Shown: positions 14,807 to 46,264 of the stretch, one piece after another
Numbering within the stretch: position 1 is the stretch's first letter
Layout: each line of letters begins with the position of its first letter
NCBI GenBank assembly: GCA_035533015.1
Contig: DATLUQ010000029.1
Span: 1 to 64,000 of the forward strand
Length of the DNA: 64,000 bases
Direction of reading: 5' to 3'
DNA from: Gemmatimonadaceae bacterium
GTDB taxonomy: Bacteria > Gemmatimonadota > Gemmatimonadetes > Gemmatimonadales > Gemmatimonadaceae
The notes under the pieces: generated by a model
What the model was told of the DNA's origin: nothing
What the model saw: only the letters and a program-made list of their open reading frames with translations
Databases searched by the model: none
Program-made: the position numbers and the translations under genes

Positions 14807-15367
14807 CTACTGGCGGAGCGACGCGGCCTCGTGCTCAAGACGGGTGGCGAGCGCCAGGAAGTGGTCGGGTGGGTTGGTCCCGTCGGCCTGCTCGAGCCGG
14901 TTGAACGCGGCGACGAGCGCGGCCGCGGCATCGGGTGGAATCAGTTCGTCGGCCATCGGGAACAGGACTTCGTCTTCCTTGGCGATGTGGTCGCGGAGCA
15001 GGGCGACGTATCCCCGGGCACTCGCGATGATGCGCCGGCGCGCCGCCGGGTCGCCGTCGCCGAGGCGCTTGGCGGCGTCCCGCATGGCACGGTTCAAGTC
15101 GCGTCCTTGCTCATGCTCCTCGAGCATCATGGCGACGGCGCCGCCGTGTGGCGGAGCGCCATGCGCGATCATCGCTCCGAACAGCACGCCTTCTTCCTTG
15201 CGGTGGTGGCAACCGTCGGCGAACCCCGACACGAAGTCGGAGGCATCGAGGAAGAATTCCGGCCGCACGGCGCCACCCCGTGCGAGCTCGTCCGCTGCTG
15301 CCGCCAGCGCATCGAGCACCCGCTCGATGAGGCGGTGCTCGGCCATCAGCATCTCGGTCGGAGTCAT
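14807..15367 (-). CDS. Hemerythrin-like di-iron protein, last gene of the aromatic operon
   Basis: A 186-residue four-helix protein. The start ATG 15367 overlaps the had stop (ATGA), so it is translationally coupled and the start is fixed. Probable di-iron ligands are all visible: H11 (AEHRLIERVL), H54/H55 and E58 (CHHRKEEGVLF), H85 (LEEHEQGRDL), and H127 with D132 (RDHIAKEDEVLFPMAD). These match the H..HxxxE..H..HxxxxD arrangement of hemerythrin-like domains. Such proteins bind O2 or NO reversibly or reduce them. Placed at the end of an operon whose key enzyme is an oxygen-labile radical reductase, O2 scavenging or sensing to protect that enzyme is the obvious inference. A role in iron or NO handling is possible. 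There is no signal peptide, so it is cytoplasmic. Confidence 0.85.
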   Translation of the reverse strand: MTPTEMLMAEHRLIERVLDALAAAADELARGGAVRPEFFLDASDFVSGFADGCHHRKEEGVLFGAMIAHGAPPHGGAVAMMLEEHEQGRDLNRAMRDAAKRLGDGDPAARRRIIASARGYVALLRDHIAKEDEVLFPMADELIPPDAAAALVAAFNRLEQADGTNPPDHFLALATRLEHEAASLRQ

Positions 15368-20280: not shown

Positions 20281-21056
20281 TGGAGGACCTTGAGCGCGGC
20301 GCCGAGCGCACCGGTGTAGATCGCATCGGGGACGGCGCGGGCCTCGACCCCGGACAGTTCCTCGAGGGCGCGGAGCACCCCCGGGAAGAACTCGACGACT
20401 CCGCCGCAGACGACGATGGGATGCGTGAAGCCCCCGATCTCGACGATGCGCTCGGCCACCGAGTGCATGCAGCCGAGAGCGACCGCCTCGCGTGAGGCCC
20501 CCTCGCGCAGCCGCTCGAGTACTTCGCTGCCGGAGAACACCGAGCAATAGCTGCTCACGGGCGCCGGCATCGAGGCCGCGGCGGCGAGTTCCTGCAGCCC
20601 CGCGGGCGCGATGTCGAGGTGGCGGGCGGCGAACATCAAGAAGCTGCCGATCCCGACGGCGCACCGTCGCACGCCGCGCGCGTCCACCCGGCGGCCGTCA
20701 TCACCCACGTGCATCACGTGCGGATCACGGCCGCCGATATCGACCAGCGTCATCGCGTGTGGCGCGTGATGGAACGCGCCGAGGGCGTGGCAGCTCTCCT
20801 CGGTGGCCGTGGTCGTCGCGTCGCGCACGCAGTTCATCGCGAACCCCGTGGCGCCGATGCCCGAGAGGTCGGACGGCTGGAGCTGCGCATCCTCCAGCGC
20901 CGCGGTGAGCACCTCGTAGCTGCACGCCTGGAAATACCCCCGCGTAGGGGCCACCGCGCGCCCGAGAATCCGACCGTCGGCACCGGCGACCACTGCCTTC
21001 ACACACTCCGTTCCGACGTCCACGCCGGCTGCGGCCCTCGCTCCATTTTCCAGCAT
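20277..21056 (-). CDS. Divergent BcrA/BcrD-type activase with altered ATP motif
   Basis: A 259-residue member of the BcrAD/BadFG ATPase family. ATG 21056 has GAGGAG eight bases upstream and was preferred to GTG 21062, which is too close to it. Visible motifs: AGVDVGTECVKAVV (phosphate-1), MTLVDIGGRDPHVMHV (phosphate-2, where the usual GGQDxK reads GGRDPH), RRCAVGIGSFLMFAA (usual CAAGTGxFLE) and SSYCSVFSGSEVLERL (second cluster Cys kept). Both cysteines are present, so a bridging [4Fe-4S] cluster is possible, but the changed phosphate-2 and helix-cluster-helix residues suggest altered ATP use or a structural role. In BcrA/BcrD-type heterodimers one subunit is also more divergent, so it may pair with the canonical activase at 18251-19048. 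Confidence 0.8.
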   Translation of the reverse strand: MLENGARAAAGVDVGTECVKAVVAGADGRILGRAVAPTRGYFQACSYEVLTAALEDAQLQPSDLSGIGATGFAMNCVRDATTTATEESCHALGAFHHAPHAMTLVDIGGRDPHVMHVGDDGRRVDARGVRRCAVGIGSFLMFAARHLDIAPAGLQELAAAASMPAPVSSYCSVFSGSEVLERLREGASREAVALGCMHSVAERIVEIGGFTHPIVVCGGVVEFFPGVLRALEELSGVEARAVPDAIYTGALGAALKVLQ

Positions 21057-21075
21057 CGGCACTGCTCCTCGCCGC

Positions 21076-23328: not shown

Positions 23329-23362
23329 ACTCGCCCGCCTCCCGCCGCGCCCATGGCGCCGC

Positions 23363-24148
23363 TCACCGATTGTGCCATACCGGCCTTCGTTTGCCGAAGA
23401 ATGCCGCGACTCCTTCGTTCACATCGTCGAGCGCCATCAGCTCGTCCAGAAACACGCGCTCGGCTTCGAGCCGCCCGGCCTCGAACGGCCGTCCCTGCAG
23501 TTGCCGCACGAGCCGCACGTTCAGCCGCATCACGGCAGGGCTCGCCCGCCGCAGTTCACCAAGCACCGACGCGAGCGTATCGGTCAATTCCGACGGCGGT
23601 ACGACCCGCGACACGAGCCCCATGGCCGCCATCTCGGCGGCCGGATAGGAGTGCCCGGTGGCCGTGATCTCGACGGCGCGGGCCGGCCCGACGCGCGCTG
23701 ACAGCCACGACACGCCCACCGGCGCGAAGAACCCCAGCCGGATCTCGGGTTGGCCGAACGTCGCCCTGGTGCTGACAAGAAGGATGTCGGCCATGAGCGC
23801 AAGCTCGAAGCCGGCTCCCAGGGCGGGGCCGTCCACCGCCATCACGATCGGCACCTCGCAGGCTCCGAACGCCGAGAACAGGCGGCTGAACGCCGCGATC
23901 ATCGCCGGCGCGTTTTCCGGGCGGTGCTCGCCCACGTCGGCGCCCGCCGAGAACGCGGTGCCGTTCGCCGTAACGGCGATGGCCGCGACCGAGCGGTCCG
24001 CCTGCGCGCGCTCCACGACCGCCGCGAGCTCCGTCATCATGGCGCCGGTGAGAATGTTGAGCGGCGGCGCGTCGAGCGTGACGTGCGCGATCGCATCGCG
24101 CACCTCGTATTGCACCGTCGTCTGGGCCTGCGCCGTGGAGGCCGCCAT
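23363..24148 (-). CDS. dch: Cyclohexa-1,5-diene-1-carbonyl-CoA hydratase (Dch)
   Basis: A 261-residue crotonase-fold protein, close to the roughly 258 residues of known Dch. ATG 24148 is preceded by AGGGG at seven bases. The oxyanion/substrate segment reads TAFSAGADVGEHRPENAPAM, and the GEHRPEN part is a hallmark of Dch (GASVEEHLPDQ in Thauera-type enzymes) not found in ordinary enoyl-CoA hydratases. The catalytic region FGQPEIRLGFFAPVG follows. Dch adds water to the dienoyl-CoA made by benzoyl-CoA reductase, giving 6-hydroxycyclohex-1-ene-1-carboxyl-CoA, the Had substrate. Gene neighbours bcr, had and oah agree. Confidence 0.87.
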   Translation of the reverse strand: MAASTAQAQTTVQYEVRDAIAHVTLDAPPLNILTGAMMTELAAVVERAQADRSVAAIAVTANGTAFSAGADVGEHRPENAPAMIAAFSRLFSAFGACEVPIVMAVDGPALGAGFELALMADILLVSTRATFGQPEIRLGFFAPVGVSWLSARVGPARAVEITATGHSYPAAEMAAMGLVSRVVPPSELTDTLASVLGELRRASPAVMRLNVRLVRQLQGRPFEAGRLEAERVFLDELMALDDVNEGVAAFFGKRRPVWHNR

Positions 24149-24174
24149 GTGCTTACCCCTGCCGCGAACCGCGG

Positions 24175-24924
24175 CTATATGTACTGGCCTCCGTCCACCT
24201 TGATGACCATCCCCGTGACATGCCGGGCCTGCGCGGAGCAGAGGAACGTGACGACCTGCGCCACATCCTCCGGCTCGGCGACGCGGCCAAGCGCTGATTC
24301 CCGCTTTGCGTTGTCCACGATCTCGGCCGGCAGCGCCGCCGTCATCTCCGTGCGCACGAGCCCAGGCGCCACGCAGTTCACGGTGACGCCGGCGCCGCCC
24401 AGTTCGCGGGCCAGCGACTTGGTCAGGGCAATGACCCCCGCCTTCGATGCCGCGTAGTTGGACTGGCCGAACTTCCCGCGGAGCCCATTGATGCTCGCGA
24501 TCGTTACGATCCGTCCACGCCGCTGGGCCCGGAGGATCGGAGCGATGGCGCGGCAGTAGGCGAAGCAGCCCTTGAGGTTGACGTCCAGCACTTCGTCCCA
24601 CTGGAGTTCCGTCATCTTCCAGATCACGGCATCGCGGGCCACGCCGGCATTGGCTACGAGAATGTCCAGCCGCCCGAACTCCTGGCGGGCGGCCTCCACG
24701 CACTCTTCCGCGGCGGCGACGTTCGCGACGTTGGCCTCGAGGACGAGCACCCGCCGCCCGCGCGCGCGGATCCGTTCCGCCACCGCCCGGGCCTCCGTGA
24801 TCGCGCCGGAGTCGACGAGGGCGACGTCACATCCCTCGTCGGCCAGCCCCAACGCGATCGCCGCACCGATGCCGCGCCCGCCACCGGTGATGATCGCCGA
24901 ACGTCCCGCCAGCTCCAGGTCCAT
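24175..24924 (-). CDS. Short-chain dehydrogenase (3-hydroxyacyl-CoA/FabG-like)
   Basis: A 249-residue classical SDR. ATG 24924 has GGGAG upstream and starts 14 bases after the oah stop. TGGGRGIGAAIA (about 13-24) is the cofactor loop, NAG the central motif, Ser of IASING and the YAASK pair complete the catalytic set, and APGLVRTEM follows. The residue at the end of beta-2 is Asp (VALVDSGA), which favours NAD over NADP. In this operon it could oxidise 3-hydroxypimeloyl-CoA or another hydroxyacyl-CoA formed after ring opening, overlapping in role with the HCDH fusion at 36350. Substrate is inferred from context only. Confidence 0.8.
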   Translation of the reverse strand: MDLELAGRSAIITGGGRGIGAAIALGLADEGCDVALVDSGAITEARAVAERIRARGRRVLVLEANVANVAAAEECVEAARQEFGRLDILVANAGVARDAVIWKMTELQWDEVLDVNLKGCFAYCRAIAPILRAQRRGRIVTIASINGLRGKFGQSNYAASKAGVIALTKSLARELGGAGVTVNCVAPGLVRTEMTAALPAEIVDNAKRESALGRVAEPEDVAQVVTFLCSAQARHVTGMVIKVDGGQYI

Positions 24925-24938
24925 CGTGCTCCCGCTCG

Positions 24939-25922
24939 TCAGGCGCCGGAGGCGCCGTTCAGCTTCGCTCCGCACTGGCCGCAGTACGCGAACGCGGAGG
25001 GAATACCCTTGGCCCCGCAGTGCGGGCAGGTGTGCTCGTACGGTCCCCACAGAAACTCACTGCTTCCGCCGTCGGTCGCCCGGCCGCGAATCCCGCGGTA
25101 GTCGATCTTGCGCTTCTCGACGAACGCCTGCATGCCTTCGTAGGGTTCGAGCGTCGTGAAGTGCGTGGACAGCCAGTCGCGGGCGTGGCCGATGGTCGCG
25201 AACCACGCCGACTCCTTCCAGTAATTCACCTGTTGCTTGGTATAGCGCGTGCACTCGGGGAACGTGTTCAGAAGCTTCTGCGCCAATTCGTTCACCGTGT
25301 CGTCGAGTTGCGCCCGCGGCACCACGCGGTTCACCAATCCCCACTCCAGGGCCTGCGCCGCCGGAATGCGCGGGTTGAGGAACAGCATTTCGCGCGCGCG
25401 CCGATCGCCCACGTGGATCGACAGCCACTGCGTAGCGCCGCCGGCCGCCACACTGCCCACGCTGGATCCCACCTGGCCCAGATAGCAGTCGTCGGCCATC
25501 ACGGCGAGGTCGCACGCGAGCTGCGACTCGTTCCCGCCGCCCACCGCCATCCCGTTGATGCGCGCGATCGTCACCTTGCCGCTGCGGAAGATCGATTCGA
25601 TGTAGCGGCTGAACAGACCCATGTACTTGAAGTATTCGTGAGGCCGCTTCGTGTAGACCGACGCGTATTCTTTGACGTCGCCTCCGGTGCAGAACGCTTT
25701 CTCTCCAGCGCCAGTGTACACGATCACCCCTACCTGGTCGTCTTGCGACGCGTCGTCGAACGCGCGAATCAGCTCCCGCAGCGTGTCGGTGGTGTACGCG
25801 TTGTAGGCTTCTGGGCGGTTGATCGTGATCCGGGCGACGTAATCCTTCTTGTCGTAGAGGATGTCCTTGAAATCCATGCTGCGAGGCGATTTCGAAGTGA
25901 AGTAGTCGATGAGCGAGGTCAT
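24939..25922 (-). CDS. oah: 6-oxocyclohex-1-ene-1-carbonyl-CoA hydrolase (Oah), short form with zinc-ribbon tail
   Basis: A 327-residue crotonase-family protein. ATG 25922 is chosen although no good ribosome site is visible; M16 (25877) is the alternative. The block VIVYTGAGEKAFCTGGDVKEY, followed by PHEYFKYMGLF and INGMAVGGGNE, closely matches Oah/BamA ring-opening hydrolases (TGAGDKAFCTGGNTKEY...EYxxYMxLF) and differs from enoyl-CoA hydratases. Oah adds water across the C=C and hydrolyses the ring C-C bond, giving 3-hydroxypimeloyl-CoA. Known Oah enzymes are near 377 residues. This one lacks about 50 internal residues and instead ends in CPHCG...CGQCG, a zinc-ribbon-like tail. Functional assignment is good, but the short core deserves checking. 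Confidence 0.78.
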   Translation of the reverse strand: MTSLIDYFTSKSPRSMDFKDILYDKKDYVARITINRPEAYNAYTTDTLRELIRAFDDASQDDQVGVIVYTGAGEKAFCTGGDVKEYASVYTKRPHEYFKYMGLFSRYIESIFRSGKVTIARINGMAVGGGNESQLACDLAVMADDCYLGQVGSSVGSVAAGGATQWLSIHVGDRRAREMLFLNPRIPAAQALEWGLVNRVVPRAQLDDTVNELAQKLLNTFPECTRYTKQQVNYWKESAWFATIGHARDWLSTHFTTLEPYEGMQAFVEKRKIDYRGIRGRATDGGSSEFLWGPYEHTCPHCGAKGIPSAFAYCGQCGAKLNGASGA

Positions 25923-25954
25923 GTGGTAGGTCTGGTTGGCGTCAGCCCGATGGT

Positions 25955-27169
25955 TCAGTGCGTGGTCACCTTCACAACGACCGCCGCCGCCGAATCGCCG
26001 GCGGCGCATCCGGTGAACAGGCCGTATCCTCCGCCCTGATTCACCAGGTCCTCCACGAGTTCGATGATCGCTCGCAGCCCGGTCGGGCCTTGGGGATGGC
26101 CCCAGACCAGCGAAGACCCGAACCGGTTCATCATTTCCGGGTCGAGGTGCAGGGAGCGGGACAGCAGGACGTCGTTCACCGCGAACGGATTGTGAGTCGT
26201 GGTGCTCGCAAGTTGGTCGGCGCCGATGCCCGCCCGCGCCAACGCCATCTGCGCCGCCGGGACGATGGCCATGGGCATGAAGCCCGGCTTCACGCGCGCC
26301 TGGCCGTACGAGAGCAGTCGGACCTCGACGTGCTCGTTGCGCGACAGCGCACGCGCGCGATCGCGGCTCCCGGTGAGCACCATGCCGGCACTGCCGTCGG
26401 CCGGATGCGTCTGGGTGCCGAACGTGACGCTCCCGCCCTCGGCGACCGGCCGCAGCGCGGCCAATCCGCTCGCCGTGGTCGGGAATACACCCTCGTCGTC
26501 TTTGATCGTGGCTGCGACCTTCTTGCCGCGCTTGACCTCCACGGGCCGCACCATGAATCGGCCGTGAAAGGCGCCGTCGTCGGCCAGCGCACGGGCGTAC
26601 TGTGCGTACCGCAACAGCGTCATCTCCTCCTGCGCCTGGCGCGTGATCGCGCATTCGCGGGCGACGTTCTCAGCCGTCTGGAGCATCGAGTTCTTGGCGT
26701 ACGGATCGTGGCCGAAGCTGTCGAGCACCAGGTCCTCGTGCTCCCCCGTGCCGCCGGCGCCGCCGGGATTGGGGTAGTACACGTGCGGCCCGTTGCTCGT
26801 TCGGTCGGCGGCCACGGCCAGGTACACGCTGGCGCTCCCGGTAGCCAACTCCTGCGCGCCCTCCACCACGCACCGCGCCGACGTGGCGCAGGCCTGATTG
26901 ATGGTCGGACCACTGACGTGGCCGAGCCCCGCAAGCCCGGCAAACCACGGCGCGCCGTAGAACGAGCCCTTGCTCGGCACCGTCGTGCCAAGGCTCATGC
27001 CGTCGATGTCGCTCGGCGCGATGCCCCGCTCATCGAGCGCCCGGTGGGCCAGCTCGGCGGCAAGCGGAATTGGCGCGAGGTTCGCAAACGAACCCTGCCA
27101 CGCGCAGAACGGCGACGACCAGTAGCCGCCGTAGGGAATATAGATGCTCTCGAATTGCATATCGCTCAT
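25955..27169 (-). CDS. Thiolase (acyl-CoA acetyltransferase)
   Basis: A 404-residue thiolase, start ATG 27169 overlapping the tetR stop. Active-site nucleophile Cys in INQACATSARCV (about residue 90), His in TTTHNPFAVND, WGHPQGPTGLR as the GHPxGxxG segment, and a second Cys in FTGCAAGDSAAAVVV. The C-terminal motif is CAAGD rather than the CIGGG of classical acetyl-CoA acetyltransferases, which points to a specialised thiolase. In context it would cleave 3-oxopimeloyl-CoA to glutaryl-CoA and acetyl-CoA after Oah and 3-hydroxyacyl-CoA dehydrogenase. Substrate is inferred. Confidence 0.83.
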   Translation of the reverse strand: MSDMQFESIYIPYGGYWSSPFCAWQGSFANLAPIPLAAELAHRALDERGIAPSDIDGMSLGTTVPSKGSFYGAPWFAGLAGLGHVSGPTINQACATSARCVVEGAQELATGSASVYLAVAADRTSNGPHVYYPNPGGAGGTGEHEDLVLDSFGHDPYAKNSMLQTAENVARECAITRQAQEEMTLLRYAQYARALADDGAFHGRFMVRPVEVKRGKKVAATIKDDEGVFPTTASGLAALRPVAEGGSVTFGTQTHPADGSAGMVLTGSRDRARALSRNEHVEVRLLSYGQARVKPGFMPMAIVPAAQMALARAGIGADQLASTTTHNPFAVNDVLLSRSLHLDPEMMNRFGSSLVWGHPQGPTGLRAIIELVEDLVNQGGGYGLFTGCAAGDSAAAVVVKVTTH

Positions 27170-27801
27170 CGTTTGCGCACTCCATTCAGAATCAGATCGA
27201 TCATCTCCGTGCCGATCTCCTCGACCGTGCCGAACCGGGCCGGGTCGTACCACATGAAAATCCAGTTCAGCATGCCGAACACGAACAGCGCCGCGTGGCG
27301 GCTGCGCCGCGACCGGCCGTCACCCTTCTCGCCCATCAAGGCGCTCACCGCGCTGGTCATGAGTTGGTAGTACCGCCGCCGCAGCGCCTCCGTGGCCTCG
27401 TACCGTTCGCCCTGCAGCGAGGCGAGTTCGTAGGTGCACACCTTGAGCTCGTTCGGATGGCTGGTGAAGAACGCGAGGTGCCCGATCACCAGGCGGCGCA
27501 ACCGCTCCTCCGGGGTACCGGACACCGCCGCGCGCTCCTCCTGCGCCGCGAGCAGCGCCGCGAACGTCCGGTACTGGATCTGATAGAGCAACTCCTCTTT
27601 GGAGTCGAAGTAGTGGTAGAGGCCGGCGAGACTCACCCCGAGCGCGCGGCTCACGTCGCGCATGGATGTCGCCTCGAATCCCTTGTCGGCGATCAACCCA
27701 GCCGCCGCTTCGAGAATGGCTTCCAGCTTCTGTTGCGTCGCGGCCCGGGGACCCCGACGGCGTGGGGCGGTGGACGTGCCGCCGTTGCTGCTTGGATTCA
27801 T
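27166..27801 (-). CDS. TetR-family regulator inside the benzoyl-CoA operon
   Basis: A 211-residue regulator. The N-terminal helix-turn-helix is at about residues 35-75 (ATSMRDVSRALGVSLAGLYH, YFDSKEELLYQ), and the C-terminal all-helical ligand domain is of the kind that binds acyl-CoA in many aromatic and fatty-acid degradation repressors. Start and stop both overlap neighbours by four bases, so it is cotranscribed with the pathway and probably autoregulated. The palindrome at 36215-36232 over the two divergent promoters is its best operator candidate. The likely inducer is benzoyl-CoA or a pathway CoA ester, by analogy with PaaR- and FadR-type TetR proteins. The acidic/basic N-terminal leader (APRRRGPRAATQQ) is normal for the family. 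Confidence 0.85.
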   Translation of the reverse strand: MNPSSNGGTSTAPRRRGPRAATQQKLEAILEAAAGLIADKGFEATSMRDVSRALGVSLAGLYHYFDSKEELLYQIQYRTFAALLAAQEERAAVSGTPEERLRRLVIGHLAFFTSHPNELKVCTYELASLQGERYEATEALRRRYYQLMTSAVSALMGEKGDGRSRRSRHAALFVFGMLNWIFMWYDPARFGTVEEIGTEMIDLILNGVRKR

Positions 27802-30677
27802 CGGCTCGGAGCTCCCTCGGTCGGCCGCACGACTGACAAGAGGTCGCGCGCCGCGGCCGGTGACGTCGCGCGCTGTCTGAGGCCATGCAGAATCTTTTCC
27901 GGTGTGATCGGAAGTTCGGTAACGCGAACGCCGCAGGCGTCGTAGATGGCGTTGGCGATGGCACCGAGCATGGGAAGCAATGAGCCCTCGCCGATTTCCT
28001 TGGCGCCGAACGGCCCGCGCGGCTCGTAGCTCTCCACGGCCACAGACCGCACCTGAGGCGCGTCCCAGATCGTGGGGATGAGATAGTCGTGCAGGTTGGG
28101 GTTCACGAGACGCCCGCCAGCGCCGACGACCGTATCCTCCATCAACGCTTCGCCGAGCCCCATGATGACGGAGCCTTCGACCTGGCCGTGAAACGTGAGC
28201 GGATTGATCACCGTGCCGGCGTCGCTGAAGTCCGTGACCCGGTCGACGGTCACGAACCCCGTTTCGAGATCGACCGTGACCTCGGCCACCGCCGTAGAGA
28301 AGCTGTAGGCGGGCGACGTGCCCACCGTGCTCCCCTTGAATCCGCCGCCGAGGTCCTTGGGCGGTTGGTAGGAGCCGGTGCCCACGATCGGGCCATGCTT
28401 GGCGAACGCCAGCCGGCCGGCAGCCGCCCAGTCCATGCCCACGTCAGGGAACTGCTGCACGAATATCCGGCCGCTCCGCGCGACGAGGCCGCCCACATCG
28501 CACGCCAGCGCCCGCGCCGCGGCCTCGAGCACCTGCCGTTTGACGGCGAGCGCCGCTTCGCGCACGGCGTTGCCCGCCATGAGCGTGACGCGGCTGGAAT
28601 ACGAGCCGAGATCCAGTGGGCTCAGGGTCGAATCGCACTCCGCCATCCATACCCACTCGAACGGCACGCCCAGCTCTTCGGCGGCGATCTGCACGAGCAC
28701 CGTGTCCGATCCCTGACCGATCTCCGCCGCGGCGATGTGCAACGACACGGCCGTGCCATCCTCATGCACGCGGATCATGGCGTTCGAGTGGGGAAAGTCG
28801 GAGCGGTAGATCGGATATCCGGCGCCGGACACGAAGCCGCCGCTGCCCACGCCGATCCCTTTGCCCGGCGGCAGATGGCCACGCTTGGCTCGCCAGTCGG
28901 TGGCCTCGCGCGCCTGCTCGAGCGTGCGCGTGAATTCGCACGACGACACGTCGAGGTCGTTCACCGTGCGCGTATTGGGCTGCATCGCATTCTTGAGCCG
29001 GATGTCGATCGGATCCATGCCCAGCTCTCCGGCGATCATGTCGAGGAGCGACTCGAACGCGAATCGCGGCTGCGGAACCCCGTGCCCCCGGAACGCTCCG
29101 CTCGCCGGTAGATTCGTGTAGACGCGCACCCCGTCGTACTTGTAGTGCGGCATCCGGTACAGCGTGGGGAGCATGGACCCGGCGTAGTACGCCGTGATCA
29201 CCCCGAACGATGTGTACGCGCCGCCGTCGAGCACCACGCGCTGCTGCACCGCGGTGATCGTCCCGTCGCGCTTCACGCCGATCTTGAGGTCTATGGTCTG
29301 CTTGTGCCGGCCGCGGAAGTGCCGGAACATCTCCTCTCGCGTGTATTCCATGAGCACCGGCCGGCCGGTCTTGCGCGACAGAATCGCGGCGCAGAAGTCC
29401 AGCGGCGTCGCCTCGGCCTTGGCCCCGAACCCGCCACCGACCGCGGGACGGATTACGCGGATGTTGCCCATCGGAATGCCGAGTGTGCGCGACAGCGACC
29501 GGTGCAGGTAGTGCGGCGTCTGCGTCGAGGACCACAGGGTGAGGCGGTCGCCGTGGGCCTCCCATTGGGCGAGCGCGGCGTGTGGCTCGAGCGGCGCCTG
29601 ATAGGTGCGGTTGCCCACGAAACGCTGCTCGCGCACGAGGTCGGCCTCGGCGAATCCCTGCGCGACGTCGCCGAAGTGCCACTCGACCCGCGTGTTCACA
29701 TTGTTGGCGTAGCGCGGACGCTCGGGATGGATCAGTGGCGCGCCGGGCGCCATCGCCGCATCCGCGTCGAAGACGGCCGGGAGTTCCTGGTAGTCCACTT
29801 CGATCAACGCCAGCGCGCGCTCCGCCGTCGCCTCGTCCACCGCGGCCACCGCGGCCACCTCGTCGCCGATGTAGCGCACTCGCTCGCGCGCGAAGATCTG
29901 CTCGTCCTCTCGCGCCGGGCTCACGCCATACCACGTGTCGGGCACGTCGGCGGCCGTGATCACCGCGAGCACGCCAGGCAGCGCCCGCGCCTTGGTGGCG
30001 TCGATCCGCGTGACGATCCCGTGCGCGATCGGACTGCCAAGAATCTTCCCGAAGATGGTGCCCGGCGGGCGATAGTCCGCCGTGTACTTCGCGCGCCCCG
30101 TGACCTTGTCCGGCCCGTCGTAACGGGTCACCCCGTGTCCGACGATCGCATGATCGCGCTTCTGATCGCGCTCACCCTCGTCGTGCGGGCGCGCGTCGAG
30201 CGGCACGCCGTCGAACTCCCACCACGACCGCACGGCGCGGATCATCCGCGGGTACGTGGCGCAGCGGCAGAGATTCCCACTCAGCGCGTCCTTGACGTCG
30301 TCCTCACTCGGCGACGGATTGCGGTCGATGAGCGCCTTGGCCGACATCAGCGCCCCCGCGGTGCAGAACCCGCACTGCAGCGCGCCGTGCTTGACGAACG
30401 CTTTCTGCAGGGGATGCAGGTCGCCGCCCGTCGCCAGACCTTCTACGGTCGCGATCGCCTTGCCGTCCGCCTCCACGGCGAGCTGCAGGCAGGCGTTCAC
30501 CGGCTCGCCGTCCACGTGCACCGTGCACGCACCGCAGTCGCCCGTGCCGCAGCCGCGCTTGGTGCCGGTGAGACCGAGTTCATCGCGCAGGACGGCGAGG
30601 AGCGTCGTCTCGGGAGCGACCGCCACCGTGTGGGGCTCGCCGTTCACGTCAAGGTGTACGAGCTGCCCCGCCGTCAT
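27798..30677 (-). CDS. Molybdenum hydroxylase, fused [2Fe-2S] and Mo-cofactor subunits (Hcr/xanthine oxidase type)
   Basis: A 959-residue protein. Residues 1-165 are the small iron-sulfur subunit with two [2Fe-2S] motifs: GCGTGDCGACTVHVDGEPVNAC, and CGFC...CRC. Residues about 190-940 are the molybdopterin subunit: DKVTGRAKYTADYRPPG, AVGGGFGAKAEATP, ASGAFRGHGVPQ, and GPFGAKEIGEGSLLP with the catalytic glutamate. In xanthine oxidase and 4-hydroxybenzoyl-CoA reductase (Hcr) these are separate chains or part of a three-domain chain; here the two are fused and the FAD subunit is separate (30674-31558). In a benzoyl-CoA operon the obvious candidate is 4-hydroxybenzoyl-CoA reductase, which removes the para-OH. 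Hydroxylation of another aromatic is possible. Start ATG 30677 overlaps the FAD gene's stop. Confidence 0.85.
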   Translation of the reverse strand: MTAGQLVHLDVNGEPHTVAVAPETTLLAVLRDELGLTGTKRGCGTGDCGACTVHVDGEPVNACLQLAVEADGKAIATVEGLATGGDLHPLQKAFVKHGALQCGFCTAGALMSAKALIDRNPSPSEDDVKDALSGNLCRCATYPRMIRAVRSWWEFDGVPLDARPHDEGERDQKRDHAIVGHGVTRYDGPDKVTGRAKYTADYRPPGTIFGKILGSPIAHGIVTRIDATKARALPGVLAVITAADVPDTWYGVSPAREDEQIFARERVRYIGDEVAAVAAVDEATAERALALIEVDYQELPAVFDADAAMAPGAPLIHPERPRYANNVNTRVEWHFGDVAQGFAEADLVREQRFVGNRTYQAPLEPHAALAQWEAHGDRLTLWSSTQTPHYLHRSLSRTLGIPMGNIRVIRPAVGGGFGAKAEATPLDFCAAILSRKTGRPVLMEYTREEMFRHFRGRHKQTIDLKIGVKRDGTITAVQQRVVLDGGAYTSFGVITAYYAGSMLPTLYRMPHYKYDGVRVYTNLPASGAFRGHGVPQPRFAFESLLDMIAGELGMDPIDIRLKNAMQPNTRTVNDLDVSSCEFTRTLEQAREATDWRAKRGHLPPGKGIGVGSGGFVSGAGYPIYRSDFPHSNAMIRVHEDGTAVSLHIAAAEIGQGSDTVLVQIAAEELGVPFEWVWMAECDSTLSPLDLGSYSSRVTLMAGNAVREAALAVKRQVLEAAARALACDVGGLVARSGRIFVQQFPDVGMDWAAAGRLAFAKHGPIVGTGSYQPPKDLGGGFKGSTVGTSPAYSFSTAVAEVTVDLETGFVTVDRVTDFSDAGTVINPLTFHGQVEGSVIMGLGEALMEDTVVGAGGRLVNPNLHDYLIPTIWDAPQVRSVAVESYEPRGPFGAKEIGEGSLLPMLGAIANAIYDACGVRVTELPITPEKILHGLRQRATSPAAARDLLSVVRPTEGAPSR

Positions 30678-31558
30678 GCCACGCCTCCCGCTTCGCGCGC
30701 CCGGGACACTGCTTGCGCGAGCGCCCGCCGCACGAGCACCGCAACGATGTCGCGGCGGAACCCCTCCGAGCCACGGATGTCGGAGATCGGGAGCGCGGCA
30801 TCGGCGCACACCGCGCCGGCCACGGCGAACAACTCGTCGGTTGCGAGCTCGCCCTCGAGCAGGCTCGACACCTGCTTCACCATCACCGGTACCGGGCTCA
30901 CGGCACCCAGCGCAACCGCCGCGCGCGCAATCCGGTCGCCGGCGAGCACCACGGCCGCCGCGGCCGACGCCACGGCAAGCGCCATCCCGCGGCGCTGCGC
31001 GAACCGCTGAAAGCTGGTGCCGCTGTGCGCTGCGGACGCCGGCACGAGGATCTCGGCCAACACTTCCCCGGGTGCGAGCACCGTCCTTCTCGGACCGGCG
31101 AACAGCTCCGCGGCGCCGATCGTCCGCTCGCCGGTGCCCGAAACGATGCGCAGCCGCGCCTGTCCCACCATGGCGGCCGGCGGCAGGTCGGCACACGACA
31201 CCGCGCGACAGAAGTTCCCGCCAATGGTCGCCAGACTCCGGATCTGCGGGCTGCCCAACGCGCGCGCGGCCTCGGCGAGCGCCGGCAGCCACGCTTGAAC
31301 GTCGGCCGACGCGGCGATCGCGCCCACCGTGGTCAGGGCGCCGATATGCAGCGTGTCGCCCTTGCGCGCGATCCCGCGCAGTTCGGAGATCCGGCCAAGC
31401 GCGATCAGATGGGTCGCCTGCTCGCGGCCACGCTGATAATCGGGCACCAACTCCGTACCCCCGGCCAGGAACGCCGCGCTGCCACCAAGCCGCTGGCCCA
31501 GCGCGCAGGCTTCGGCCAGGGTCGTCGGTCGGTGATAGGTCAGGGGCAGGGTGGGCAT
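30674..31558 (-). CDS. FAD subunit of the molybdenum hydroxylase (CoxM/HcrB type)
   Basis: A 294-residue subunit of the FAD-binding-5/CO-dehydrogenase-flavoprotein type: FLAGGTELVPDYQRG (FAD pyrophosphate), LRGIARKGDTLHIGALTT and RSLATIGGNFCRAVSCADL. It begins eight bases after bcrD and overlaps the fused FeS-Mo gene by four. The Hcr beta subunit has an insert of about 40 residues with four Cys holding an extra [4Fe-4S] cluster, which explains its reverse electron flow. Here that region is short and only two cysteines (C-x4-C in NFCRAVSCADL) are seen. This argues against a classical Hcr, or means electrons take another route. The subunit passes electrons between the FeS clusters and an external partner. 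Confidence 0.83.
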   Translation of the reverse strand: MPTLPLTYHRPTTLAEACALGQRLGGSAAFLAGGTELVPDYQRGREQATHLIALGRISELRGIARKGDTLHIGALTTVGAIAASADVQAWLPALAEAARALGSPQIRSLATIGGNFCRAVSCADLPPAAMVGQARLRIVSGTGERTIGAAELFAGPRRTVLAPGEVLAEILVPASAAHSGTSFQRFAQRRGMALAVASAAAAVVLAGDRIARAAVALGAVSPVPVMVKQVSSLLEGELATDELFAVAGAVCADAALPISDIRGSEGFRRDIVAVLVRRALAQAVSRAREAGGVA

Positions 31559-31566: not shown

Positions 31567-32430
31567 TCAGCTCACTGCCGCCGCCGACCACGCGACGTCG
31601 GAGAGCTCCAATTTGCGGAACCGGAAGCCACCCCACAGCGCTGCCCCGATCGCGCCAGCGTAGATCGCGGATTCGTCCGTGATGACCTCGGCCGCCCCTT
31701 CGCCCGTAACCGGCGCCTTCTTGCTCATGGCATCCCGGAGTGCGGCGAGCATCCCCACATCGCCCGCCAATCCGCCGCTGACGAACACCGGTCCGTCGAA
31801 CTGCAGCGACCGCAACAAGCGCGCGAATCGGTCGGCCATGCTCTGGTGCACTCCCCGCAGGATGTTGGCCGTGGTGATTCCTCGCGACACCATGTTGATC
31901 ACGTCGGTTTCGGCCAGCACGGCGCAGATGGAACTCACCTTCTCCGGCTCGTCCGCCTGGAGCGACAGCGGACCGATCTCGTCGTGCGAGACACCCAGGT
32001 ACCGGGCGATGTTCTCGAGGAACTGTCCAGAGCCCGACGCACACTGGCTCGTCATCTTGTAGTCCAGCACCCGGCCGCGCTCGTCCATCGCCAGCGCGCG
32101 TGTGTGCAGGGCCCCGACGTCGAGCACGGCGCGGGCCGGAGGGGCCAGATGCAGTGCGCCCCGGGCGTGCGCCGTCATGCCGTAGAAGTGCCCGGTGGCG
32201 TATGGGAACTCCGCGCCCTCGCCAGTGGTCGCGATGTAGTGGATCGCATCGACGCCAGCCGCATCCGTGGCGGCCTGGAAGACTTCGTCCACGACCTTGG
32301 CCACGACCCGGCGGCGGATGCGCGACGATTGCTGCGTGAGCATCGTGGCGTCACCGTCGGCGTCCGTCCGCATGATCACCACTTTCACGGCGCCGCTGCC
32401 TACGTCGATCCCTGCGCTCAGAGTGCTCAT
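31567..32430 (-). CDS. bcrD: Benzoyl-CoA reductase subunit D (BcrD)
   Basis: A 287-residue BcrAD/BadFG ATPase subunit whose ATG 32430 overlaps the bcrA stop by one base. Motifs: GIDVGSGAVKVVIMR (phosphate-1), AVLDVGALHTRALAMD (the phosphate-2 variant I associate with BcrD-type chains, in place of DIGGQDxK), KMTSQCASGSGQFLENIARYLG (first cluster Cys) and SSICAVLAETDVINMVSRGI (second). The ETDVINMVSRG segment is typical of BcrD/BadG. With BcrA it forms the heterodimer that hydrolyses two ATP per electron and holds a bridging [4Fe-4S] cluster. Order C-B-A-D is identical to Thauera and Rhodopseudomonas operons. Confidence 0.9.
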   Translation of the reverse strand: MSTLSAGIDVGSGAVKVVIMRTDADGDATMLTQQSSRIRRRVVAKVVDEVFQAATDAAGVDAIHYIATTGEGAEFPYATGHFYGMTAHARGALHLAPPARAVLDVGALHTRALAMDERGRVLDYKMTSQCASGSGQFLENIARYLGVSHDEIGPLSLQADEPEKVSSICAVLAETDVINMVSRGITTANILRGVHQSMADRFARLLRSLQFDGPVFVSGGLAGDVGMLAALRDAMSKKAPVTGEGAAEVITDESAIYAGAIGAALWGGFRFRKLELSDVAWSAAAVS

Positions 32431-33701
32431 CAGGCCACCATCCGATTGGCGAACAGCGCGGCGCCCAGCGCCCCGGTGTAGATGCTGTCCGCCGAGATGT
32501 TGATCGTGCGCGCCCCATAGTTCTCGTCCACGAGGTCGCGAATGGCCCTCACGGCCGCGGCGTTCTTCGCAACGCCGCCGGTGAAGGTGAACTCGTCGCT
32601 CACGCCGCCCGAGCGGGCGAGCAGGCTCATCGCGCGGAGAATGATCGCGCGATGCAATCCGGCCAGGATGTCCTCCCGCTTCTGGCCGAGGCCGAGCAGT
32701 TCGCGCAATTCGGCTCCCGCGAACACCGTGCACGTGGAATTGATCTTCACCGCATGCCGCGACTGCTCGGCGAGGGGTCCCAACTCGTGAAGCCCGAGGT
32801 TCATCTCATCCGCGATGTAACCGAGGTACCGCCCGCAGCCGGCCGCGCAGCGATCGTTCATCTGAAAGCTCGTGACGATCCCCTCGGCATCCACCTGGAT
32901 CGCCTTCGTGTCCTGGCCGCCGATGTCGAGCACCGTCCGCGTATTCGGAAACAACACGTGCGCCCCGAGCCCGTGGCAGAGGATCTCGCTCCGGATCTGT
33001 TCCTTCGGAAACGGCAGCCGCGCGCGGCCGTACCCCGTGCCCACGGTCGCCACCGGCGTGAGGTCCGTGGCTACCGCGTGGTCCACCGCCGCGGCCAGAC
33101 CCTCCGGCGTGCCCACGCGCTTCAGGGCATCGGCGATGTGATCCCGGAAGTCGAGATCGAGCGGCTCGTTCTCCACGCGGATGATGCACTTGTCGTACAC
33201 GCCGATCAGCCGGTCGAACGTCACCCCCGTCGGCTCGGCCACCTCTTCGGCGATGCGCATGAACGCCGACCCGGCGGCGTCGCGGAAGAAGTCCGAGCGG
33301 GTCGCCGGCGGCTGCCGGAAGAGCGCGACCTCCTCGTCGGCGATGCGGCCGCAGATCCGCTCCAGCGCCTCCGTGAATGCCGTGCGGAGGTCCGGCGGCG
33401 CCGCGCGGGCCACCTCTTCACGCATCAACTCTTCGAGTCGCCGCAGTTGATGCAGCATCTGCTCCAGCACGAATGCCCGCCGGAGACGCGCCACGGAATC
33501 CTCCCGTTCGGCCCCCGCCAGCCGCTGCTGGATCAGCCCGAACCGCGCGTTGATCAACGCCTCGGTGCGCGCCACCGCCGCGGCCAGATCGTAGTTGGAA
33601 CGCGAATTGGTGATCCCGCGCCCCAGCATCTCGCCGTTCCCGTCGAGCACCACGGCCTTGGTCGTCGTCGACCCGAGATCGATCCCGATGACGCAGCTCA
33701 T
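32430..33701 (-). CDS. bcrA: Benzoyl-CoA reductase subunit A (BcrA)
   Basis: A 423-residue activase. ATG 33701 overlaps the bcrB stop. [18 protein letters not shown] (phosphate-1) is followed by an insert of about 150 residues (helical, [18 protein letters not shown] onward) that makes it longer than simple HgdC-type activases and matches the length of Thauera-type BcrA (about 436). Then come [16 protein letters not shown] (phosphate-2), [19 protein letters not shown] and [16 protein letters not shown] (cluster cysteines) and [10 protein letters not shown]. It pairs with BcrD and powers electron transfer from reduced ferredoxin to BcrBC. The long form points to the Bcr/Bad class rather than the short Bzd activases. 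Confidence 0.92.
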
Positions 33702-34969
33702 GCGGCCGACCTCCGGCGAGCGTCGATCATCTGGAAGTAGCTCTCGAGGCGATTCTTGATGTTGGCCGACGAGAAGTACCGCGGATCCACCAGGTCGCTC
33801 TCGATGAACGCGCCGGGAACCCCCGTCCGCTTCTCCACCTCGCGCAAGATCATCAGCTGCCCGGCCGAGAATGAATTGCACGACTTTATGGAATTGATCA
33901 CGAAGCCGTCCGCCTCGTACTCGCGGATGTACCGCGCGATCGTGTCGATGCGCGACGGGAGATTGAGGTTCGTGTAGCACCCGCTGCAGTAGTCGGCCAT
34001 CGTGCCGAGCGGGTCGTTGGGATCGTGGCGAAAGCCGGTGTCGTACGTCCCGCCCACCTTGGTGTACGTGGACGCCACCACCACCGCCTTCTCGTCGGTG
34101 AACATCTTCCAGAAGTCGCGAAAGTGCGTCCAGCTCGGCGGCCCCTCCACCACGAGCCGGTACCGTTGGTCGTCGAGCGAGCCCGAGGGCGTGATCGGAC
34201 CCAGCCCCGCCGCGGCGCGCGCCTCGATCTCCTCGCGCAGCGCGCGGTAGTACTCCACGCCCTCCTCCGTGCCGCGGAAGGCGCTGAAGATCGGCCCCAC
34301 GTAGTACACCGTGCCGAAGTAGCCGTCGATGGGACTCGGCCGCTGCTTCGCCGATTCCAGCACGGCCACCAGGTCGTCCTCGGCGCGCGCCGAGAGCGCC
34401 AGACGGCGACGAAGTTCCTCCTCGTCGTACTTGCGGCCGGTAGCCTTCTCCAGCGCCGGGATCACCGTGTCGCGGAGTTGCCGGATCATGTACTCGCGAT
34501 GCTCCGGCTCCAGCACGCCGTCGCCCTGATACGGCACGTGGAAGAACACCGCCGGACAGTCGTACTCCTCGCGCAGCAGTTCGAACCACTTCATGAACGT
34601 GTAGCACCCCGTGTACGACAGCAGCAGCAGGTCGGGCTTGGGCAGCTTGGTGCCCGCGGGCGAGATGTTGCCCGACTTCATCATGCCGATGTCACACTTC
34701 ACGTACGCGCACACGTCCTCCGAGTGGCCCGACCGCTCCGCTTCGGCGATGTACTCCCCCGACTGCTTCCGCATGCCCGATTGCAGGGCGTTGATCTCGG
34801 GCAGCACGGGCAGCGCCCCGAACGAGCGGATGAGCTCCGTGAGATTGCCCGGCACGAACGTGTAGACCACGGGCTCGTGCCGCGCCGGAGCCTGCTCCAG
34901 CCGCGCGAAGTGCTGCGCAATCATCTCCTTCTGGAGCAGCATCGATTGATCCTTGAGCACCTCGGCCAT
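33698..34969 (-). CDS. bcrB: Benzoyl-CoA reductase subunit B (BcrB)
   Basis: A 423-residue subunit whose start ATG 34969 overlaps the bcrC stop by one base. Characteristic BcrB blocks: [72 protein letters not shown] and [20 protein letters not shown], which carry the cysteines for its [4Fe-4S] cluster. With BcrC it forms the ring-reducing half of the enzyme, where benzoyl-CoA takes up two electrons to cyclohexa-1,5-diene-1-carboxyl-CoA. The blocks match BcrB more specifically than other 2-hydroxyacyl-CoA dehydratase relatives, including the two extra subunits of this operon. Confidence 0.92.
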
Positions 34970-36135
34970 CAGGCGGCCCCCCAGAGCTTGAGCGAATCGG
35001 AGAACGTTCCGGCCTGCTCGCGGAACTGTTGGAACTGGCCCGTGTTCTCCGCATACTTGAACGCGATGCAGGGCAACCCCGCGCGCTCGGCGCCGTTGCG
35101 CAGCATCGGCTGGTCGAGCAGCGCCGGATCGCAGAAGCTGGGGGTCGCGAAAATGATCCCGTCGGCGTGCGCGGCGTCGGCACGCTGCTTCATCAGGTTG
35201 CGCTTGCCGTCCGGATCGCCCTCGAACAGCACGGAGGTCTTCAGGTCGTTGCGCACGAACGCGTCGGCCAGATTGCGCAGCGGATCGCCGTCCAGCGGCA
35301 CATCGCGCGTCATGAACCGGTCGCCGAGCAGGAAATCGTCGTCCACCACGTAGCAGCCCGCCTTCTCGATCGACTTGATCAGCCCCAACGGCGGCTGCTC
35401 GCAGAACGCGCCGGCGATCACCACCCGGCTGTTGTCGCGCGGCCGGCGGCGGTCGGCATTCACCCCGTCCAGGTACTCGCCGACGCAGGCGATGAACTCC
35501 TCCGGCGGCACCACCTCGCCGGCACGGAGCAGCAGGTACAGCTCCTCGGTGGGCACGTCCCACGGCCGCTCCTGCCGCACCGCGTACAACGCCCGGATCG
35601 CCGAGCGCATCGCGTTGTACAGCCCGATCGATGCCGCGAGGTCTTCGGGCGTCGGCACCTTTCCCGAGACCGCACCCAGGTCGTCCACGAGACGGTGCAA
35701 CTCCCCTTCATAGAACTGCGCTGCGGCCGCCGCGTCGGGTACCTGCGGAATGTCGATGTACCGGACGTAGGTGCCGGGGTAGAGAAGCTTCCACATGCCC
35801 GACAGGTTGCGGATCACGTCGCACGTGGACGGAAAGAGCACCGCCGAGAGCATGTCCAGCCGCCCCGATTGCGCCAGCTCGATGACCGACCGCGGCAGGT
35901 GGCAGATGTACGACTGATAGAAGGCGTCGCCGCGGATGATCTCCAGGCGGTCGCCGCCGCCGTGGATGCCCACGGGCAGAAACCCGCAGGCGTGGAGCAC
36001 CTCGCGGGGGACGTAGACGGGGAGATAGCCGGCCGCCTTGCGGCCCGGATGCTGCTCGAGCCACCGGTGCACGGCACCGAAATCGAGATCCTCGTACAGT
36101 TCACGTGCCCAGGCGACGACAGTGGCTCGAGACAC
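34969..36135 (-). CDS. bcrC: Benzoyl-CoA reductase subunit C (BcrC), first gene of operon
   Basis: A 388-residue subunit. GTG 36135 is chosen because AGGAGG lies six bases upstream and the protein then begins VSRATVVAWARELYEDLDFGAV, like known BcrC; the long upstream extension is not protein-like. Motifs: AAGYLPVYVPREVLHACG, QSYICHLPRSVIELA, AVLFPSTCDVIRNLSGMW, GAFCEQPPLGLIKSIEKAGC and CDPALLDQPML near the C-terminus. It binds a [4Fe-4S] cluster and the CoA substrate with BcrB. As the first gene of the minus-strand run it defines the promoter region at 36212-36263. Length and block order match Thauera-type BcrC (about 384 residues). Confidence 0.9.
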   Translation of the reverse strand: MSRATVVAWARELYEDLDFGAVHRWLEQHPGRKAAGYLPVYVPREVLHACGFLPVGIHGGGDRLEIIRGDAFYQSYICHLPRSVIELAQSGRLDMLSAVLFPSTCDVIRNLSGMWKLLYPGTYVRYIDIPQVPDAAAAAQFYEGELHRLVDDLGAVSGKVPTPEDLAASIGLYNAMRSAIRALYAVRQERPWDVPTEELYLLLRAGEVVPPEEFIACVGEYLDGVNADRRRPRDNSRVVIAGAFCEQPPLGLIKSIEKAGCYVVDDDFLLGDRFMTRDVPLDGDPLRNLADAFVRNDLKTSVLFEGDPDGKRNLMKQRADAAHADGIIFATPSFCDPALLDQPMLRNGAERAGLPCIAFKYAENTGQFQQFREQAGTFSDSLKLWGAA

Positions 36136-36211
36136 TCGGCCTCCTGAATGGAGGGGCAACCGGTCGAGGACGAGAGCCCAGAGCTTGCCGGCCCCCTCCC
36201 CGAACCATCTA

Positions 36212-36240
36212 TTCCGAACGAACGTTCGAACGATTATAAT
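36212..36240 (+). promoter_or_regulatory. Candidate promoter for the divergent HCDH/ECH gene
   Basis: TTCCGA (36212-36217), 17-base spacer, TATAAT (36235-36240), pointing toward the gene at 36350. The palindrome at 36215-36232 fills the spacer, so a bound repressor would block it. Confidence 0.6.
36215..36232. promoter_or_regulatory. Likely TetR operator between divergent promoters
   Basis: CGAACGAACGTTCGAACG, containing the perfect 10-base palindrome CGAACGTTCG (36219-36228). It lies between -35 and -10 of the rightward promoter and just downstream of the -10 of the leftward one, so one bound dimer could shut both. The TetR gene of the operon (27166-27801) is the natural ligand; this pairing is inferred. 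Confidence 0.6.
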
Positions 36241-36263
36241 GGGGACGTTGGCTCCGCTGTCAA
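36233..36263 (-). promoter_or_regulatory. Candidate promoter of the bcr operon
   Basis: On the minus strand TTGACA (36263-36258) and TATAAT (36238-36233), 19 bases apart. The hexamers are perfect and the spacer slightly long. Transcription would start near 36226, inside the palindromic operator, about 90 bases before the bcrC GTG. The self-complementary ATTATAAT serves as -10 for both directions. Confidence 0.6.
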
Positions 36264-36349
36264 TAGCGACTTTTCGGCGCCTGGTACTTTCTGGGTGCCT
36301 TACCGCCGTCCTGCGCCTCGGCCCGGACGGCAGGAGTAAGGGTGCGGCC

Positions 36350-38371
36350 ATGACATACCAGTTCCGCGGTCTGACCCTCTCGAAGGTCGGCATCGTCGGC
36401 TCCGGCAACATCGGACCCGACATCGCCCTCCATTTCGCCAAGACGCTCGCGTCCTCCAACGTCGCCGTGGTGGTCGTCGATGTCGCCCCCGAGGCGCTCG
36501 CCCGCGGTCGCGCGAAGCTCGAACAGAAGGTGCGCAAAGCGCGAGAGGGCGGGGCGTTCACGGACCGCCAGGCCGACGCCATCCTCCACGCCGTCACGTT
36601 CACGGACGACTACGCGCTGCTCGGCGACGCGGGATTGATCGTCGAAGCGGCGACCGAGAATCTCGAGGTCAAGAAGCGCATCTTCGCACAGCTCGAGTCG
36701 CTGGTGTCGGCCGATGCCGTGCTTGCATCCAACTCGTCGCACATCGAGCCGGAGCTGATCTTCGCCGGATTGCGCGATCGCCGGCGGGCGCTGGTGCTTC
36801 ACTACTTCTTTCCCGCCGAGCGAAACCCCGTGGTGGAGATCGTCTCGGGGCCCGATACCAGTGCGACGCTGGTCGACGATCTCCTCGGCTTCTACGAAGC
36901 GATCGGCAAGGTTCCGGTGCGCGTGGGCGGCCGGTACGGCTACGCCGTCAATCCCGTGTTCGAGGGGCTGTTCCTCGCCGCAGCGCTGTGCGTCGAGGAA
37001 GGCCTGGGGACGGTGAAGGAGGTCGACGTCGCGGCCAGACGCGCGCTCGGCCTGGGCATCGGCCCGTTCACCGCGATGAATCTCACCGGCGGCAATCCGA
37101 TCACCGACCACGCGCTGGACGAGATGACGACCCGGGTAGGCCCGTGGTTCCGCTCGCCCCAGTTAATGAAGGACGCGATGGCCTCGGGCCGGCCCTGGGA
37201 CGTAGCCAGACGGGACGAGCCGGTGGCGCTCCCCACCGAGCGCGAGGAGCCGATTGCCGACGCGATGATGGGCGCGTATTTCGGTCTCGTCGGGGAGATC
37301 CTCGACAGTGGCATCATCTCGCTCGGCGACCTCGAACTCGCCGTCGAGATGGGCCTCGCCGTGCGGGCGCCGTTCGCGTTCATGAACGCGCTCGGCGTGG
37401 AGCGCGCGTTGGCGCTGGTCCAGGCATACGCGGCCGGTCACCCGGGCTTCGCGGTGCCGACCGCCCTTGCCAGGCAGGCGCGCGGCGGCCGGCCATTCGA
37501 CATTCCATATGTCCTCCGGCGCGACGTCGGCGACATCGCCGTGCTCACTATCCGGCGGCCGCAGGTGCTCAACGCGCTCAACGACGATGTCTACCGCCAA
37601 CTCCACGACCGGTTCACCCTACTGCGGGACGAGGCGCGGATTCGTGCCGTCGTGCTCACCGGATTCGGGACCAAGGCGTTCGTGTCGGGCGCGGACGTCA
37701 ACTTCCTCGCGGCGATCGCGACGCCGGACGAGGGGTTCCGCACGTCGGAGCGCTCCAAGGCGGCCGGGAACCTGATCGAGAACCTCGGGAAGCCGGTGAT
37801 CTGTGCGCTCAACGGTTCGGCGTTCGGCGGCGGGAGCGAACTCGCCATGTGCTGTTCGGCGCGCATCGCGCGGTCGGGCTTGTCTGTGGCGATGGCGCAG
37901 CCGGAGGCGAACCTGGGCATCGTGCCGGGCGCTGGCGCCACACAACGGCTTCCGCGCCTCGTGGGCGTGGAGCGTGCAGCCGAGATGCTGCGCACGGGAC
38001 GCGGGCTATCGGGACGGGAGGCCGTCGCGTGCGGGCTGATCCGGGAGGAGGTGGACGGCGACGTCGTGGAAGCGGCAATCCAACTGGCACGCGCGGCGGC
38101 GGACGGCCGTGTAACGCTGGCCCGGATCGACCGGCGGCCGCTCGATGTCCCGGCGACTCTGCCGGACGTCGCACTGGGGCACCTCAGCCGGGCAATCGAC
38201 GGCCTCATGTGCAGAGCGATTGTCGAGGGCTGCCGGCAACCGCTGGACCAGGGTTTGCGGTTCGAATCCGAAATGTTCGGGGAATGCTGCGCAACCGAAG
38301 ACATGCACGTCGGGATGCGGAACTTCTTCGAGCATGGACCGCGGGCACCTGCGGAGTTCGTCCACCGATAG
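36350..38371 (+). CDS. 3-hydroxyacyl-CoA dehydrogenase / enoyl-CoA hydratase fusion
   Basis: A 673-residue bifunctional protein from ATG 36350 (AGGAG at 36332-36336 is rather distant). Residues about 1-380 are the NAD-binding 3-hydroxyacyl-CoA dehydrogenase: VGIVGSGNIGPDIA, VEAATENLEVKKRIF, SNSSHIEP, and LHYFFPAERNPVVEIV with the catalytic His, then two C-terminal helical domains. Residues about 395-673 are a crotonase: FVSGADVNFLAAI, and FGGGSELAMC with QPEANLGIVPGAGATQRL, so both catalytic glutamates are present. The order HCDH-ECH is the reverse of FadB/FadJ and is found in archaeal-type enzymes. It would hydrate and oxidise the C7 dicarboxylyl-CoA released by Oah. It shares the divergent control region with bcrC. 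Confidence 0.87.
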   Translation: MTYQFRGLTLSKVGIVGSGNIGPDIALHFAKTLASSNVAVVVVDVAPEALARGRAKLEQKVRKAREGGAFTDRQADAILHAVTFTDDYALLGDAGLIVEAATENLEVKKRIFAQLESLVSADAVLASNSSHIEPELIFAGLRDRRRALVLHYFFPAERNPVVEIVSGPDTSATLVDDLLGFYEAIGKVPVRVGGRYGYAVNPVFEGLFLAAALCVEEGLGTVKEVDVAARRALGLGIGPFTAMNLTGGNPITDHALDEMTTRVGPWFRSPQLMKDAMASGRPWDVARRDEPVALPTEREEPIADAMMGAYFGLVGEILDSGIISLGDLELAVEMGLAVRAPFAFMNALGVERALALVQAYAAGHPGFAVPTALARQARGGRPFDIPYVLRRDVGDIAVLTIRRPQVLNALNDDVYRQLHDRFTLLRDEARIRAVVLTGFGTKAFVSGADVNFLAAIATPDEGFRTSERSKAAGNLIENLGKPVICALNGSAFGGGSELAMCCSARIARSGLSVAMAQPEANLGIVPGAGATQRLPRLVGVERAAEMLRTGRGLSGREAVACGLIREEVDGDVVEAAIQLARAAADGRVTLARIDRRPLDVPATLPDVALGHLSRAIDGLMCRAIVEGCRQPLDQGLRFESEMFGECCATEDMHVGMRNFFEHGPRAPAEFVHR

Positions 38372-46255: not shown

Positions 46256-46264
46256 GAGACGACG

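Follow-up and report, generated by a model that had tools for sequence, protein, structure and literature searches.

The locus and its genes

The window, i.e. the whole stretch of 64,000 nucleotides that was analysed, is part of a 184-kb contig from a draft genome of 3.03 Mb. It carries a presumed operon on the minus strand, headed by the genes of a benzoyl-CoA reductase, and a divergent gene (had) that is separated from bcrC by a gap of 214 bp (36136-36349). The main genes are:

31567..36135, minus strand: bcrC, bcrB, bcrA and bcrD, class I benzoyl-CoA reductase, head of the operon (NCBIfam)
15364..31558, minus strand: presumed remainder of the operon (profile searches; co-transcription presumed from the spacing)
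27166..27801, minus strand: tetR, proposed repressor, within the operon (PF00440 and PF17932 over cut-off)
36350..38371, plus strand: had, fusion of a 3-hydroxyacyl-CoA dehydrogenase and an enoyl-CoA hydratase, divergent (profile searches)

The products of bcrC, bcrB and bcrD score over the NCBIfam cut-offs (TIGR02263, TIGR02260 and TIGR02261, respectively) and that of bcrA just below it (TIGR02259, 569.5 bits versus 578); all four subunits of a class I (BcrCBAD-type) enzyme are present in the operon. After bcrD the order is hcrB-like, a fused hcrC-hcrA, tetR, thiolase, oah-like, SDR and dch-like, and the presumed operon also holds a second reductase-like set, a CoA ligase and an alcohol dehydrogenase. 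One fused frame (27798-30677, minus strand) encodes both the small and the large subunit of the 4-hydroxybenzoyl-CoA-reductase-like enzyme. The second reductase-like set (18251-23328, minus strand) comprises two ATPases of the BcrAD type along with two HGD-D proteins; one HGD-D protein is fused to a ketopantoate-reductase-like domain (21076-23328), a fusion that is kept in relatives from other phyla. Elsewhere in the window (43623-49507, plus strand) lies a candidate three-gene metal RND efflux operon, its genes named by eye from the translations as an outer membrane factor, an adaptor and a CzcA-like pump.

The TetR protein is well covered by both domain profiles (PF00440, 62.9 bits with a cut-off of 24; PF17932, 82.4 bits with a cut-off of 26.4), and its structure model (pLDDT 89.9) has TetR proteins as best Foldseek matches. 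There is a 4-nt overlap between the tetR start and the hcrCA stop, and the thiolase gene begins within the tetR end; expression from the operon is thus the simplest reading.

Promoter elements and the conserved box

The elements that a preliminary description of the gap had proposed were all found where it had put them, with spacings of 19 nt leftward and 17 nt rightward. Together with the elements that came out of the present analysis they are:

36212..36217, plus strand: possible weak -35 of had, TTCCGA (sequence match)
36215..36228, no strand: operator box CGAACG-NN-CGTTCG, 14 bp (predicted from conservation)
36215..36232, no strand: 18-mer CGAACGAACGTTCGAACG of the preliminary description (final four bases vary among relatives)
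36233-36240: self-complementary ATTATAAT (coordinates confirmed)
36233..36238, minus strand: -10 of the bcrC promoter, TATAAT (ATTATA on the plus strand; 19-nt spacing from the -35)
36235..36240, plus strand: possible -10 of had, TATAAT (17 nt from TTCCGA)
36236-36241, minus strand: alternative -10 of bcrC, CATTAT (16-nt spacing, 10/12)
36258..36263, minus strand: -35 of the bcrC promoter, TTGACA (TGTCAA on the plus strand; sequence match and conservation)

Scored with approximate -35 and -10 frequencies, the leftward TTGACA-19-TATAAT was matched by none of 200 shuffles and the rightward TTCCGA-17-TATAAT by one of 200. A stricter promoter scan of the gap returned the leftward promoter alone, with CATTAT at 16-nt spacing, and the -10 in use at bcrC may therefore be either TATAAT or CATTAT. 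The earlier proposal that ATTATAAT serves as a -10 in both directions holds in that both TATAAT hexamers are present; ATTATAAT is, however, private to this genome.

The 18-mer had been put forward as a palindromic operator. With up to three mismatches it occurs once in the window, versus 0.08 copies expected from shuffles; it is, however, an imperfect palindrome, and since its last four bases vary among relatives it was ruled out as the operator. The conserved unit is the 14-mer at 36215-36228. This shorter sequence shows no enrichment in the window (with up to two mismatches, 13 occurrences versus 11.0 expected), and its significance thus comes from conservation and not from rarity. In the bcrC direction the -10 ends 4 nt before the box. 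The palindrome was also said to lie within the rightward spacer, which is correct for most of the box, whereas its first three bases fall inside the rightward -35 hexamer.

Conservation of the box

Among 395 Gemmatimonadota genomes, 15, our own counted, have a TIGR02263 match over the cut-off. The other 14 genomes and G092, in which bcrC is split over two contigs, provided 15 relative loci. All 15 contain exactly one CNAACGNNCGTTNG, and the exact box, CGAACGNNCGTTCG, precedes bcrC in 14 of the 15 relatives as it does in the window, counts that are not independent given the close relatives among them (L037/L039, L043/L046 and L044/L045). In the divergent locus L049 an 11/12 box heads another operon, with a distant tetR and bcrCBAD. 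The half-sites are invariant among the phylum relatives and the two central bases vary. The 18-mer and ATTATAAT were found in one of 15 Gemmatimonadota gaps (the window counted, L049 excluded), solely that of the window. Our genome has six copies of CNAACGNNCGTTNG, including that of the window; one overlaps a V-type ATPase-like ORF (L004) and one a methionine-synthase-like ORF (L005), both named by eye, and two overlap ORFs without a confident name (L001 and L003).

A bcrC-alignment scan of species genomes yielded 80 loci (1.29 Mb), nine of which are on the same contigs as loci of the phylum set; two of the genomes, G425 and G436, look like a single one. The exact box occurs 17 times in these 1.29 Mb, 16 of them within 160 bp upstream of bcrC, so that 16 of the 80 loci, from many phyla, have it there. 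Beyond Gemmatimonadota these include loci of Acidobacteria (L072, L074 and L103), Krumholzibacteriota (L075) and Myxococcales (L088), as well as L079. The 89 other permutations of the half-site gave one locus in total among the 80, and of the half-site spacers from 0 to 8 a spacer of 2 alone gave loci. Eight further bcrC loci have an 11/12 box. No box of at least 11/12 was found within 400 bp at 56 of the 80 loci, many of them from Planctomycetota and Proteobacteria; at many such loci a different gene extends as far as bcrC, and control must come from some other promoter or factor. In the Myxococcaceae locus L134 an exact box (7424-7437) lies in the divergent promoter between hgd2-act1 and adh-dch-tetR-bcrCBAD; this operon carries a distant TetR (about 35 % identity) and has the same layout with other genes.

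All 30 rows of the alignment agree at 11 of the 12 half-site positions, and 28 of the 30 sequences have TTGAC no more than 48 nt upstream of the box, i.e. the bcrC promoter is conserved as well. At eight loci of other phyla this promoter reads TTGACA-17-TAnnnT and ends 6 nt before the box, which places the start of the box at about +1. An inverted repeat that is self-complementary and overlaps the putative start site might work as RNA, in the form of a hairpin in the bcrC leader, or might be no regulatory site at all. We consider this exceedingly improbable: the half-sites are invariant without covariation, no terminator-like site was found in the gap of the window, and the tetR genes of related clades have the same box upstream. 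The hairpin as such was ruled out by its loop of just 2 nt together with the invariant half-sites.

Co-occurrence of the box and the TetR protein

The search for orthologs of the operon TetR covered 30 loci out of the 80: 15 had a box of at least 11/12, and the 15 box-less ones came from among those closest to the query. An ortholog was found in 12 of the 15 genomes with a box at bcrC versus one of the 15 without (Fisher p 1.2e-4, kinship ignored). The three box genomes in which none was found might be drafts with missing parts. The box-less exception, G456, has an 11/12 box ahead of hcrB, and the box-less G449 has a distant TetR relative only (E 4e-38).

In other phyla the pathway is split, with bcrCBAD preceded by a box and a separate hcrB-hcrCA-tetR operon. 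A second box is present in seven of the nine readable hcrB upstream regions of such operons (three exact, four 11/12); L196 has no better than a 10/12 box before hcrB and L192 has none there. In L179 an exact box lies between tetR and a divergent hcrCA-like gene, and tetR adjoins hcrCA in all 12 other-phylum loci examined. A genome-wide pattern search of 15 split-pathway genomes returned 20 sites, 13 at bcrC, three at hcr/tetR and four elsewhere (L208, L211, L214 and L227), versus none for a control pattern in the same genomes. The preliminary description had named the operon-encoded TetR as the binder of the palindrome; conservation of the box, co-occurrence with the ortholog and the second boxes give this proposal strong comparative support.

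For the protein tree 31 TetR sequences were aligned; near copies, fragments and distant ones were excluded (L039, L045, L046, L049, L134, L140, L142, L154, L160, L162, L165, L167, L168, L169 and L184). The 23 proteins linked to bcr or hcr form one clade (support 100/99), the exact neighbours of which are unsure owing to long branches. Outside the clade, 11 of 13 related TetR genes have a box of at least 11/12 no more than 60 bp ahead of their start, and behind seven of these 11 lies a fadB-like gene. In other Gemmatimonadaceae (L158-L164) a FadR-like TetR gene precedes a fadB-like gene and has the box 32-37 bp before its own start; judged from this arrangement, it likely encodes an autoregulated fatty-acid regulator.

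The operator code is thus common to several clades, and a different cellular protein of the TetR type, e.g. a FadR-like one, might bind the box of the window instead of the operon TetR. We consider this quite improbable, since the genome has four TetR_N genes only, the other three have no box of at least 10/12 in their available flanks, and the ortholog of the operon TetR tracks the box across phyla. The presence of the box at related TetR genes and its absence at the others of the genome tie it to that branch of TetR and not to TetR proteins generally. An evenly balanced proposal is that a single, so far undescribed regulator clade with a single operator code controls class I bcr and 4-hydroxybenzoyl-CoA reductase genes across Gemmatimonadota, Acidobacteriota, Krumholzibacteriota and Myxococcota, the code being kept through fission and fusion of operons, and that operator and fold derive from an acyl-CoA-sensing FadR-like ancestor, the signal having changed, with aromatic or alicyclic CoA thioesters in place of fatty acids.

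Possible control of the divergent had gene

A single site was originally proposed to repress both divergent promoters, which the analysis supports in part. The bcrC half of this proposal is sustained by the conserved promoter that abuts the box, whereas the had half is weakened by the poor rightward -35 and by two related loci. In L038 the TATAAT is kept at the same place though the upstream gene is not divergent, and in L042, from the same genus, a second near-match box (11/12) lies close to the had start. Both loci would fit a box that serves the bcrC promoter only, with a had promoter that is absent here or independent of TetR and a rightward TATAAT that arises incidentally from the AT-richness of the leftward -10 and from the flanks of the box. 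The rightward -35, which matches at three of six positions at best in most gaps, and the boxes at bcrC that have no adjacent divergent had in other phyla (e.g. L072, L075 and L079) point the same way. Nevertheless, the best rightward promoter, with a TATAMT-type -10, adjoins the box in 14 of 15 gaps, an argument for a common site that also controls had, and the gap of the window yielded no second convincing promoter in the rightward direction. We hold a box that is restricted to bcrC to be possible though rather doubtful; repression of had by the box is plausible and somewhat to be preferred, if weaker than for bcrC.

A proposed repressor-operator switch

We consider it highly probable that 36215-36228 is the operator of the TetR protein of the bcr-hcr operon, through which initiation at bcrC would be blocked, the had promoter covered, the synthesis of the repressor itself limited and acyl-CoA would bring release. 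In the proposed mechanism the ligand-free TetR dimer would sit on the bcrC promoter (TTGACA/TATAAT) at about +1 to +14, where it would block initiation. Given the compact gap, this dimer would extend, in the divergent had promoter, over the spacer and a portion of the -35. Accumulation of an acyl-CoA that is aromatic or ring-reduced would release the dimer. We infer from the position of the box that the protein is a repressor and not an activator.

On comparative grounds, repression of bcrC by the operon TetR appears well supported. As tetR lies inside the repressed operon the protein would restrict its own synthesis, and the feedback from within the operon that had been suggested before likewise finds strong comparative support. 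Very probably, judging from the sequence comparisons, the operon TetR represses bcr via the box and limits its own synthesis. The box has been kept nearly letter for letter across several phyla together with one repressor gene, and is thus very probably the on/off switch of this oxygen-independent pathway of aromatic-ring breakdown. The pathway and the nearest protein structures suggest that the ligand is probably a CoA thioester; benzoyl-CoA itself is a tentative candidate, possible rather than probable.

In the literature searched there is no described regulator of class I benzoyl-CoA reductase outside Proteobacteria and, with most subscription journals outside the scope, no TetR protein described for bcr/hcr operons in Gemmatimonadota or Krumholzibacteriota; the main text of a paper on bcr in Krumholzibacteriota (PMC10936416) has no mention of TetR, regulator or repressor. 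In uncultured phyla the box can serve as a DNA marker of the regulon. It is also a defined probe with which to find the ligand, and the ligand would reveal the intermediate that these bacteria read as the signal of aromatic supply. A further possible use of the box is as a part of an aromatic-CoA biosensor.

Comparison with known systems

The solved structures nearest to the operon TetR, by profile and by fold, are those of PfmR (3vpr), AibR, KstR2 and FadR, with identities of 19-36 % in the fold alignments; they include AibR with isovaleryl-CoA, KstR2, and FadR with stearoyl-CoA. All four are acyl-CoA-type TetR regulators of other pathways, with acyl-CoA-binding proteins among them.

Benzoyl-CoA degradation genes in Azoarcus are controlled by BzdR/BoxR with benzoyl-CoA as effector (PMC4424350, PMC6449761). 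Unlike the operon TetR and its box, these regulators belong to the XRE family and use TGCA repeats; TGCA occurs zero times in 36136-36349 and BzdR-type repeats were thus ruled out for the gap. MbdR of Azoarcus sp. CIB (3-methylbenzoyl-CoA) is also a TetR repressor of an anaerobic aromatic-CoA pathway, with operators that span the start sites and the -10 (PMC4424350). Its operator, ATACN10GTAT, is unlike the box of the window; with up to one mismatch it is absent from 36136-36349, the nearest match starting at 36355 inside had, and an MbdR-type operator in the gap was ruled out accordingly.

PaaR (TTHA0973) of Thermus thermophilus is a phenylacetyl-CoA-responsive TetR protein and a local repressor of an aromatic-CoA pathway, with AACnAACGTTnGTT as its REPSA consensus (PMC6651687). 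The box of the window fits its operator, CNAACGNNCGTTNG, exactly (PMC6651687), a string that stands in two of the papers searched; the PaaR pathway is that of aerobic phenylacetate, unlike bcr. Judging from its sequence features, the system of the window would work like PaaR and MbdR, with a TetR protein as the local repressor of a pathway for aromatic-CoA compounds.
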